Notes under the pieces: generated by a model
The model's input: the letters and a program-made list of their open reading frames with translations, nothing else
Databases searched by the model: none
Told to the model about the DNA's origin: nothing
In this document: positions 6,909 through 38,288 of the stretch, piece after piece
Layout: every line of letters begins with the position of its first letter
How positions within the stretch are numbered: position 1 is the first letter of the stretch
IMG/VR virus record: IMGVR_UViG_3300042478_000896
Location: 1 to 38,288 of that record
DNA length: 38,288 nucleotides
Direction: 5' to 3' (one strand)
Source: a virus
Translations under genes and position numbers: made by a program

Positions 6909-6945
6909 AAAGAGCCGTTTCGGACACCCGAAACGGCTCTTTTTG
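6909..6945 (+). terminator. Strong intrinsic terminator
   Basis: A perfect 13-bp stem (6911-6923 with 6928-6940, arms AGAGCCGTTTCGG and its complement), extended by A-T pairs, with a 4-nt ACAC loop and TTTTTG after it. It ends the transcript of the preceding small gene. Confidence 0.92.
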
Positions 6946-35540: not shown

Positions 35541-36943
35541 TTCCTCATATCATGATCATCCAGTCGGCCTACATTGACCGCAGGCTATCAGAGCGACGGC
35601 TGGAGATTTCTCGACACACTGCGATACCATCGCTCGCATACCAGACCGTCAAGCCTGTTATTCACATCGCGGTCAATCCTGACGATCCGTTTTTGGCTGA
35701 GCGACTTGAGGCATTCCGGGCGACAGGTTGCGAAGTGAAAGCACTTTATCGACCCAACTGGAAACTCTATCGCGAGAACTGGGAACTTCCCGAGGGACGC
35801 AAGATCGTCAGTCGCATGGACGATGACGACGTGATCTGTAAAGAATATTGTGAACTTACAAGGGCACAAGCTCCAGAGTCGGGCGAATGGAATCTCATCT
35901 GGCCAAACGGGTACGTCTTTTGGCGTGAAACCTGCTACCTCCTTCACCATCCCGGCATCCAGTTCGTGACGCTGGTGACTGATCACGACAAAGATCCACA
36001 TCAGGAGCAGCACTGGGGATACCACAAACGATGGCAAACAAAGGTCGTTTCCGATGCAGTCGGCTGGATCTGGGTTCGTCACGGTGACGCGGCATCGTCA
36101 ACGCTGCCGAGATACCGCAAAGTTAAGCGAAGCGGCATTGATGCGAAGCGGATTCCGATCAACCTGAGAGCGATCCTGCGAGCTATTGCGGACTCTGGCA
36201 CAGCGAGCGGAAACTATACGGAACACCGCAATCCGGCACTGTTGGCCCATGTGCTACAGCAAAACAAACGGCACGAACCGGCAACACCAGCGGGGCCGCG
36301 ATTTCTTGTAGTAGTCCCAACGCATCGGTTGGCAGTGGCTCAGGCGACAATCGACGAACTGCAAATGTCGTTCACGTACCCAACAGAGTTTCACGTTCTC
36401 GACGGCACGCCCTCGAAGTGTCACGCACTCAACAAGGCTCTGGCCGAACTGCTCGACCCGTCAAAGCATGACATTTACGTGACGATTGACGACGACATTC
36501 TGCCTGGAGAAAACTGGCAGCACTTTATCGCCTGCGCATTTGATCGCATTCCGAAACTGGGAGCGTGCGGAGTTGATTACAGCGGAACCGAGGAAGGCCG
36601 GGCGTTAATGGCTAACGCGATGCAAGCTCCAGTTACGCAGGTTCGAGACATCCAGTTTCGTAACGCGACGGGCTTGCAGAATCTTGCAGGCGGCTGTTTC
36701 GCAATCAGGTCCGCACTAGCCAAGGAGATTGGCCCGTATCCATTCGCGGACGATGGCAGGCAATACCACGCAGACGAAGACGGCTGGAGATCGCATCAAG
36801 TCACGCGACGGGGCTGGCAAGTCGGTTACGTCACGAATCCCAATGAGCCTGTCAGGATGATTGCTCACCGAAACACAGAGCAATATGAAACGAAAAAACA
36901 AAACGACATTGAGGCATGGCAAGCAAGGCCCGTGTGGTCGTGA
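35537..36943 (+). CDS. Two-domain glycosyltransferase
   Basis: A 468-residue protein with two sugar-transferase-like domains. N-terminal: MIIQSAYIDRRLSERRLE and VSRMDDDDVI (Asp95-98), then a WPNGYVFW strand, like putative rhamnosyltransferases. C-terminal (from about 255): FLVVVPTHRLAVAQATIDEL, EFHVLDGTPSKCHALNKAL, VTIDDDILPGENW (Asp318-320), AGGCFAIRSAL and the acidic YHADEDGWRSHQVTRRGW, a GT2 pattern. It is the last gene before the 37-kb regulatory region. It may build a glycan on virion or host surface together with the two enzymes upstream. Confidence 0.75.
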   Translation: MIPHIMIIQSAYIDRRLSERRLEISRHTAIPSLAYQTVKPVIHIAVNPDDPFLAERLEAFRATGCEVKALYRPNWKLYRENWELPEGRKIVSRMDDDDVICKEYCELTRAQAPESGEWNLIWPNGYVFWRETCYLLHHPGIQFVTLVTDHDKDPHQEQHWGYHKRWQTKVVSDAVGWIWVRHGDAASSTLPRYRKVKRSGIDAKRIPINLRAILRAIADSGTASGNYTEHRNPALLAHVLQQNKRHEPATPAGPRFLVVVPTHRLAVAQATIDELQMSFTYPTEFHVLDGTPSKCHALNKALAELLDPSKHDIYVTIDDDILPGENWQHFIACAFDRIPKLGACGVDYSGTEEGRALMANAMQAPVTQVRDIQFRNATGLQNLAGGCFAIRSALAKEIGPYPFADDGRQYHADEDGWRSHQVTRRGWQVGYVTNPNEPVRMIAHRNTEQYETKKQNDIEAWQARPVWS

Positions 36944-36976
36944 AGTCATAGTTACGGCCCCGGCGTCATGAACCGG

Positions 36977-37031
36977 AGAAACGAAGCCTGGGAAGGGCCT
37001 GCCTCGATCGGGGCAGGCTCGCTTCGTTTCT
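36977..37031. repeat. Nested 11-bp and 7-bp inverted repeat
   Basis: AGAAACGAAGC (36977-36987) with its perfect complement (37021-37031) encloses GCCTGCC (36997-37003) with GGCAGGC (37012-37018). There is no T-run after it, so it is not a textbook intrinsic terminator; it could end transcription with help, or be a dispersed repeat or recombination site. It separates the glycosyltransferase operon from the promoter at 37.1 kb. Confidence 0.6.
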
Positions 37032-37083
37032 GGATACCCCACAAAACACGGGCAAAACAAAATCTTTTCCGCAATCCTGCAAA

Positions 37084-37127
37084 ATGATATCACCAACCAT
37101 TGACGCCAATTCCGATAGTGATATCAT
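37084..37127 (+). promoter_or_regulatory. Promoter bracketed by a perfect 10-bp inverted repeat
   Basis: TTGACG (37100-37105) and TATCAT (37122-37127) are spaced by 16 bp. ATGATATCAC (37084-37093) and GTGATATCAT (37118-37127) are exact inverted copies on either side; the second overlaps the -10. Dyad centres are 34 bp apart, about three helical turns, the geometry of two repressor dimers that could contact each other. It should drive the five small genes and the RNA that follow. Confidence 0.75.
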
Positions 37128-37166
37128 GCCTGCATCGAGACGCAAAACACTGGTAAGGAAAAGAAC

Positions 37167-37319
37167 ATGATCAACACACCAGCAACAATCAACATGATCA
37201 AGCCTTGGCTGACAGGAAACGACGAGAACGACGCAAAGATGCTCAGCCGAATGTTTCGAGCGGTTGGCTTCAGTCTTGGAGAGTGGAGAACAGTGGTGGC
37301 GGAAGCGAAGGCAGCATAA
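37167..37319 (+). CDS. Small hypothetical early protein
   Basis: A 50-residue protein directly after the operator-promoter. TAAGGA precedes the ATG. Mostly helical (DENDAKMLSRMFRAVGFSLGEWRTVVAEAK). No family recognised. The stop overlaps the start of the next gene (TAATG). As the first gene of the unit, it is a candidate regulator or an early host-takeover factor, but nothing in the sequence decides. Confidence 0.55.
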   Translation: MINTPATINMIKPWLTGNDENDAKMLSRMFRAVGFSLGEWRTVVAEAKAA

Positions 37320-37459
37320 TGAGCAAAGAGAAAAGACAAGGGGCTGGCAGACCAGCCCCCACAATCCGCAACCTGCAAGCCCGCATCATTTACGCCCAGC
37401 ACGACGGCAACTACGCCGAAGTCTTGCGGCTCAAGAAGGAACTGGAGAAAGTGAAGTGA
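37319..37459 (+). CDS. Very small hypothetical protein
   Basis: A 46-residue protein with ATG at 37319 overlapping the previous stop. A basic GRPAPTIRN lead is followed by a helical hairpin-like region (LQARIIYAQHDGNYAEVLRLKKELEKV). Unknown. The stop overlaps the GTG of the following RHH-like gene, consistent with coupled translation. Confidence 0.5.
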   Translation: MSKEKRQGAGRPAPTIRNLQARIIYAQHDGNYAEVLRLKKELEKVK

Positions 37460-37611
37460 CAAAGAAAATCAAGGGCAATCCTCAATTGCTGCTGCGTGTT
37501 CCGCCGGAACTGCAAAAGCCGTTGGCGGATGAAGCAACAAAGACCGGCGAGACGAGGCAGGGTGTGCTGTGGCGGATTGCGGCTAGGTATTTCAATGGAC
37601 GACGCAAATGA
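37456..37611 (+). CDS. Small RHH-like DNA-binding protein
   Basis: A 51-residue protein with GTG start overlapping the previous stop. QLLLRVPPELQKPLADEATKTGETRQGVLWRIAARYF has the strand-helix-turn-helix pattern of RHH repressors, with a basic N- and C-terminus. It lies 330 bp after the twin-dyad promoter and is a good candidate for the protein that binds it. Third RHH-like gene in the window. Confidence 0.6.
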   Translation: MTKKIKGNPQLLLRVPPELQKPLADEATKTGETRQGVLWRIAARYFNGRRK

Positions 37612-37886
37612 AAGGCATCAGACCACCAAAACCAGACAGGCCAATACCGCCAAAAGACTCGCTGCTCACAGTGCTCTGGCAGGTGGAATACAAAGTGCGG
37701 AGCGGCAAGCGTTATGGCCAATGGCTATGCCAGTGCAAGTGCGGCGCGACATGCAAAGTGATCAGGGTGCGAATCCAAAATGGCCATACAAGATCATGCG
37801 GATGCCTGCACACTCAGGCATCGAAACAAAACATCAGAACGTGTCTGCAAAAACAAAAAGAACGGAGTCTCGCAAATGCTCAATAG
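37608..37886 (+). CDS. Cys-rich nuclease-associated-type domain protein
   Basis: A 92-residue basic protein. LLTVLWQVEYKV, WLCQCKCG, VRVRIQNGHTRSCGCL is the short zinc-binding domain commonly found in phage proteins and at the N-terminus of some HNH homing endonucleases (CxC, CGC). No nuclease domain is attached. It probably binds DNA. The start overlaps the previous stop (ATGA). Confidence 0.6.
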   Translation: MKGIRPPKPDRPIPPKDSLLTVLWQVEYKVRSGKRYGQWLCQCKCGATCKVIRVRIQNGHTRSCGCLHTQASKQNIRTCLQKQKERSLANAQ

Positions 37887-38016
37887 CTGCTTGGCCTTTA
37901 TGGTGATTGTGATGCTTGGATGCTTTGCGGCTGGCTCGTGCGAACTTGCTGCGGAACGCAAGGAACGGAAATGGGTTGAGAAGCAGATTCGCAACAAATA
38001 TGGGCGGACATATTAA
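37876..38016 (+). CDS. Small membrane or lipoprotein-like peptide
   Basis: A 46-residue protein: hydrophobic residues 5-20 (CLAFMVIVMLGCFAAG), with Cys at 5, 16 and 22, followed by a charged tail (ERKERKWVEKQIRNKYG). A short signal-anchor or lipoprotein-like peptide. It overlaps the previous gene by 11 bases and is the last gene before the structured non-coding region. Such peptides are often superinfection-exclusion factors, but no motif shows this. Confidence 0.55.
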   Translation: MLNSCLAFMVIVMLGCFAAGSCELAAERKERKWVEKQIRNKYGRTY

Positions 38017-38047
38017 CCGGCGAGGGCATGGGTCCACCGGATTAAAT

Positions 38048-38256
38048 CGGAAACGGCTGGATCGTTTTCAGTCGTGCCCCTTGGCAACTGCGGGGGCGAA
38101 TCTCCCTCAGAGCCTGCTGCATTGAAAAATGATTTTCAACGGCTGGCCCCCGCAAGCCAATGAAGGCCAGCAGGCTCTGAATTCTCATCCCTGTGAACAG
38201 TCCGCCAGCGGTGGCGTTCACGGTCGTCAATGGCTGTTCACAGGGTGTTTTTCTAT
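38048..38256 (+). ncRNA. Structured non-coding RNA with interlocking stems, candidate
   Basis: There is no supportable gene in 38017-38258. Paired elements, all exact unless stated: hairpin 38049-38055 with 38063-38069 (one wobble); A, 38089-38097 with 38146-38154 (9 bp), extended by TTGGC 38081-38085 with GCCAA 38156-38160; B, 38107-38119 with 38168-38180 (13 bp); hairpin C, 38122-38128 with 38133-38139; D, 38189-38200 with 38234-38245 (12 bp), enclosing hairpin CGCCA/TGGCG (38203-38207 with 38212-38216), then TTTTT at 38248-38252. A and B interleave (A-B-A'-B'), so they form a pseudoknot or exclude each other. D could end the transcript. Class unknown; no homology to a named family is claimed. 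Confidence 0.7.
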
Positions 38257-38288
38257 CAATGAAAGGACTTCAGAATGTTGGTACTCAG

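Follow-up and report, generated by a model that had tools for sequence, protein, structure and literature searches.

The 38,288-base window analyzed here, an IMG/VR virus record that encodes tail, terminase, helicase, and primase genes, closes with a stretch dense in complementary arms, and this locus raises the question of whether those arms form an RNA, in what fold, and acting on which genes. The preliminary description read the stretch as an interlocked, possibly pseudoknotted non-coding RNA of unknown class. The stems on which that reading was built are all exact, namely a 9-bp pairing (38089-38097 with 38146-38154) interleaved with the 13-bp closing stem of what we call motif A (Table 1), the 7-bp hairpin inside it, and a 12-bp pairing further downstream (38189-38200 with 38234-38245). 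The short competing pairings (GCCCC/GGGGC and GTGAA/TTCAC) and the repeat of AACGGCTGG at 38052-38060 and 38138-38146 are likewise present, and the tail at 38246-38253 reads TGTTTTTC. Such complementarity does exceed chance. Among 2,000 dinucleotide shuffles of the region, none contained a stem of 13 bp or more, two contained one of at least 12 bp, and none contained three stems of at least 9 bp; three such stems were also absent from all 757 other 209-nt stretches of the window tested. Folded as a single strand, the region has a z-score of -5.64.

Table 1. Features at the 3' end of the window and at the start of the gene that follows (window coordinates unless a contig is named).
Feature	Position	Strand	Description
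Hairpin, probable late-operon terminator	36977..37031	+	After last late gene; stem AGAAACGAAGC/GCTTCGTTTCT plus inner hairpin
Inverted repeats	ATGATATCAC 37084-37093, GTGATATCAT 37118-37127		Possible repressor operator
Promoter-like TTGACG-16-TATCAT	37100..37127	+	TG before second hexamer; proposed early promoter
Small ORF	37780..38016	+	Ends ..KYGRTY; last frame before the RNA; from ORF list
Hairpin H0	38017..38040	+	CCGG-CGA-NNNN-loop-NNNN-A-CCGG
Hairpin H1	38054..38074	+	7 bp, 7-nt loop
Hairpin H2	38076..38097	+	Includes GCCCC/GGGGC pairing
Motif A, three-way junction	38107..38180	+	Closing stem 38107-38119/38168-38180; hairpin 38122-38128/38133-38139
Motif A third helix	38144-38147/38156-38159	+	UGGC-CCCCGCAA-GCCA; near-invariant AUGAAGGC next
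Terminator-like hairpin T	38189..38252	+	12-14 bp; tail TGTTTTT
csrA ribosome-binding site	38260..38272	+	UGAA-AGGAC-UUCA; short hairpin, GGA in loop; candidate CsrA site
Phage csrA, first codons	38275..38288	+	14 nt, then record ends; full gene L002:114-383

Relatives decide which of these pairings are conserved. No DNA-level similarity to the window was found in isolated-phage or plasmid collections; 45 related viral contigs were recovered with the AAA ATPase (389-1183) as query, and many of them carry the RNA region at 75-98% identity. In motif A, for which 19 distinct versions were aligned, 96.6% of cells are paired and 11 of the 24 pairs show double changes, a level reached by none of 500 shuffles. 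The compensatory changes fall in its first two helices (98.8% of cells paired in the 13-bp stem, 91.1% in the 7-bp hairpin) and extend to diverged versions (CAUGGUCUGCCCC/GGGGCAGGCCAUG in contig L030, UUGCGA/UCGCAA in L079); the third helix (UGGC/GCCA) is near-invariant, as is GGCCNNCGCAAGCCAAUGAAGGC, and its pairing stays predicted. For hairpin T (20 sequences), every cell of the outer stem (100%) is paired, and six pairs show double changes. Upstream, H1 is also fully paired (100% of cells, double changes in four pairs), and H0 occurs in 13 distinct versions in which one pair is seen as AU, GC, CG, and UA; its pattern returned 49 stretches across viral contigs, with a single H0 in each. Across alignments A3, A4, and A5, G-U pairs number 91 against 6 A-C pairs (with some overlap in the counts, as A3 and A4 have sequences in common), which points to the plus strand, sense for csrA, as the molecule that folds. 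A protein-coding reading was discarded, as relatives carry 1-nt insertions that shift the frame at 38129, which diverges immediately. So was a reading of the 13-bp repeats as the ends of a MITE transposon, because these repeats show the covariation and G-U pairs of an RNA stem.

The interlock itself fared differently. While the 13-bp, 7-bp, and 12-bp stems all covary, the 9-bp pairing showed no compensatory change among 16 distinct relatives: 84.7% of its cells are paired, which equals the shuffle mean, with zero double changes, and it drops to six of nine pairs where the 5' hairpin has changed. On the 5' side it uses the 3' arm of H2, an arm that covaries with the H2 5' arm (CCCGCUG/CGGCGGG versus CCCUGUG/CACAGGG), and its 3' half is invariant. 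The GCCCC/GGGGC pairing, first taken for a competitor, is part of a conserved hairpin. The two partners also occur separately: the 3' half is retained intact in phages lacking H2 (L020, L032, L037, L047, L051, L053, and L058), and the H2 arm is present without it in L109, where motif B replaces motif A. The lack of double changes, the covariation of H2, and this separate occurrence together indicate that the interlock is a feature of the window's own sequence and not a conserved fold. Without a conserved interlock, and with no match to a ribozyme in Rfam, the HDV-like and twister-like ribozymes suggested by the interleaved layout were dropped.

Membership of a known class was not found. The window had no match at or above the gathering score in Rfam release 15, and the RNA region searched alone gave none to an E value of 5 apart from one chance hit of 15.7 bits. 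A search for the exact motif A core in genomes from about 85,000 species of bacteria and archaea found nothing; a covariance model (R1) had no match among 80 bacterial csrA loci or in 392 genomes from the phylum of a Planctomyces MAG, the latter searched under strict filters that could lose weak matches. On the phage records where it was expected, the same model recovered motif A, one copy each, and the motif is single copy per phage genome. No structured RNA of this kind before a phage csrA gene was described in the open-access papers found. The non-coding RNA of no known class proposed earlier is, on this evidence, real: it belongs to what is apparently an undescribed family of structured modules supported by covariation.

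The position of the RNA suggests what it might act on. Upstream, the hairpin after the last late gene contains an 11-bp inverted repeat whose arms covary in many relatives (e.g., AAACGAAGC/GCTTCGTTT versus AAACGCAGT/CTGCGTTT). Between this hairpin and the early genes lies the only sigma-70-like site in 36900-38288 (0.7 expected by chance), in a block that is nearly invariant in 19 of 20 aligned sequences and that, with its inverted repeats, likely serves as early promoter and operator. The RNA is located roughly 0.9 kb downstream of this block and begins immediately 3' of the stop codon of the small ORF, whose C-terminus recurs in relatives; with the promoter-like block so far upstream, the RNA looks like an intercistronic leader within an early operon. 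Its placement ahead of the replication operon is borne out. That the stretch holds no gene is correct for the RNA itself, but the reader of the window could not see that csrA starts at its very end. Contig L002 extends the window end (127 nt at 100% identity, with no mismatch) and encodes a product of 89 residues assigned to the CsrA family above the gathering score (Pfam PF02599, 42.4 bits against a cut-off of 27, E = 6.9e-11). L002 also has 462 nt between positions 38288 and 1, so joining the window end to its start was rejected as not real. A CsrA-like gene lies 3' of every leader that reaches its next gene, across divergent CsrA alleles; a tblastn search of isolated phages gave no match to the allele of L002.

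Cellular relatives of one phage CsrA allele are nearest in Planctomycetota for the most part (up to 70% identity), and the hosts are therefore probably Planctomycetota; relatives of the AAA ATPase in Planctomycetota genomes are distant only (about 23-36% identity). Contigs L003, L004, and L075 break at the same places as the window, either in the first codons of csrA or at window position 1. The csrA alleles of close relatives differ strongly, so assemblies probably break at a hypervariable gene. One allele, ILVLTRKLDEK (L009:3131; also L008 and L013), has an apparent ATC start, with no ATG, GTG, or TTG at the expected place.

What the RNA does is best approached through hairpin T, an intrinsic-terminator-like hairpin directly before the ribosome-binding site. 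Of 37 distinct leaders, 34 have a stem of at least 9 bp with a trailing U-run that ends 23-39 nt, usually 25-30 nt, 5' of the csrA start; a comparable stem and U-run was present in 61 of 1,500 random stretches. Where T is lacking, a U-run in the equivalent position comes after motif A (L037, L047, L056) or after motif B (L207), three contigs (L112, L226, and L228) have tandem terminator-like hairpins, and L030 and L031 have motif A and no U-run ahead of csrA. The interval of 23-39 nt leaves scant space for a second promoter. Given this placement and the little room 5' of csrA, polymerase most likely gains access to csrA and the replication genes by reading through a terminator inside the operon, and the upstream modules most likely set how often it does so. 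With U-runs that often number only four or five, the hairpins may terminate weakly or may serve RNA stability instead.

We propose that transcription would start at the conserved promoter near 37100-37127 and that polymerase crossing the leader would either halt at T or read through, at a level set by the upstream modules and presumably by whatever those modules recognize; the leader would thereby control csrA and the downstream replication genes by attenuation. The sequences themselves establish the module folds, the strand, the csrA context, the conserved position of the terminator-like stem, and the swapping of modules; promoter use, termination, regulated read-through, and CsrA autoregulation are inferences from them. 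We give this account of a modular early-transcript leader an even chance. Visual inspection of alignments A3-A5 gave no conserved alternative pairing that could act as an antiterminator, so a classical two-state switch is not supported. A further layer of control may come from CsrA repressing its own translation through the hairpin at its ribosome-binding site. The CsrA binding consensus and short hairpins with GGA in the loop have been described (PMC7652899), and the GGA in the loop of this hairpin fits the expectation for autoregulation; a GGA-loop hairpin is present in most csrA alleles, with stem variants CGAA/UUCG, AACA/UGUU, and GGAA/UUCC, but its predicted stability is low, and autoregulation so read depends on very weak predicted hairpins.

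The leader is built from modules (H0, H1, H2, A or its substitutes B and C, and T) that have been gained, lost, and swapped. Contigs gathered by DNA patterns and protein queries include about 43 with motif A, 17 with motif B, and at least two with motif C, a third fold in the A/B slot (GAGGC...GCGAAAGAAUCGC...GCCUC; L034/L100/L229 and L226). Among forty distinct upstream regions, H0, H2, A, B, T, and a tRNA-like element are combined in over a dozen ways. Motif A stands before eight or more CsrA alleles, and four CsrA allele classes are preceded by A in some phages and by B in others, so the modules appear interchangeable and are not matched to one CsrA allele. The tRNA-like element lies between H0 and motif B (L112:2208-2275, L219:6348-6415, and L208:191-258 on the minus strand). 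It scores as an Rfam tRNA at 48.7 bits with a three-nucleotide anticodon loop; ARAGORN made no tRNA call for the element of L112, and it is perhaps a tRNA mimic or remnant. In L063 (7133-8150; also L009, L107, and L225), an insertion between H0 and H1 comprises a gene, whose product starts MITFTLETISPHVAKQYLERN, and an RNA-like sequence bearing a T-arm and acceptor-like ends (GACTGTG/CACAGTC).

Alternatively, the modules could be trans-acting stable small RNAs that arise from the early transcript by cleavage or termination, with T as their 3' end and csrA expressed by leaky read-through. Their compact, self-contained, and independently swapped form would suit such RNAs, as would the tRNA-like element among them (L112, L208, and L219), which recalls the stable-RNA clusters of phages. 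Against this, every phage has the RNA in the same position directly ahead of csrA, motif A is present only once in a genome, and in several phages it ends within about 30 nt of the csrA start; we regard trans-acting RNAs as a possible but doubtful alternative. The leader, antiterminator, and small-RNA roles offered by the preliminary description are in this way narrowed without being settled: position in an early transcript and a conserved terminator-like hairpin before csrA favor a cis-acting leader, and control of the csrA-replication operon in cis is, in our estimate, about as probable as not.

An RNA-only antiterminator of the HK022 put type would fold, bind polymerase, and carry it past T and later terminators. 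Such RNAs need no phage protein to keep polymerase from terminating downstream, and the phage leader resembles them as a folded RNA ahead of terminators in a phage early transcript, although to our knowledge the two have no sequence in common. Tandem terminators ahead of the replication genes would require some passage, and no antitermination protein was identified, which counts toward this option. Against it, A, B, and C differ from one another in sequence and layout, unlike what one polymerase-binding surface would require, and phages in which motif A lies right before csrA have nearby only the U-run of motif A to pass. We consider such an antiterminator improbable. Less probable still, and disfavored, is a sponge or cis binding platform for CsrA resembling CsrB or RsmZ. 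The neighboring csrA gene, the GGA at its ribosome-binding site, and a CGA-AGGAA-UCG element in motif B would accord with it, but the many GGA-bearing hairpin loops typical of CsrB and RsmZ are missing from the leader: GGA is not enriched (3 against 4.1 expected in the 234-nt leader, with similar values in relatives), the conserved core of motif A contains none, and motif C has AAGAA in place of the AGGAA of motif B. That the interlocked 9-bp and 13-bp stems form the functional fold is the least credible reading, since, although both are exact in the window and eight of nine pairs can form with one bulge in most relatives, the 9-bp pairing lacks compensation, competes for bases with the covarying H2, and has partners found apart, and the minimum-energy fold, from a program that cannot draw pseudoknots, lacks the interlock and prefers H2 to the 9-bp stem.

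Compared with known systems, the leader is most like attenuators and riboswitch-like leaders, being a structured RNA in the transcript of one gene with a terminator-like hairpin before the ribosome-binding site. Unlike them, it lacks a conserved alternative pairing, exchanges its pre-terminator part for unrelated folds, presumably sits mid-operon, and was seen in phage genomes only. The csrA leaders of Gammaproteobacteria and their CsrB/RsmZ RNAs (PMC7652899) share the csrA context and the GGA in a ribosome-binding-site hairpin but differ in having multiple GGA hairpins, and the phage modules are not GGA elements. Phage-borne CsrA homologues are already known from Pseudomonas, Vibrio, and other phages, and the available text of one survey neither establishes a role for them nor mentions RNA control of a phage csrA gene (PMC7366521). 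In three annotated phage csrA records, csrA overlaps or closely trails the preceding gene, leaving no space for a comparable leader.

We tentatively suggest, as a possibility on the weaker side, that unrelated folds (A, B, C, and the tRNA-like element) share one slot between early promoter and terminator as cassettes that would set expression of phage CsrA and the replication genes. If so, the arrangement would constitute a modular RNA-based checkpoint on early expression and replication, previously undescribed. Backed by covariation and linked to phage csrA wherever the locus is complete, this RNA family offers a testable handle on how phages time a host-type global regulator together with replication. 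The swapping of whole folds at one site, with the terminator retained, provides a natural experiment of an unusual kind for asking which part of the leader works. Elsewhere in the window, the longest perfect inverted repeat (15 bp, AAAGAGCCGTTTCGG, 6909-6942) lies 3' of the primase gene.
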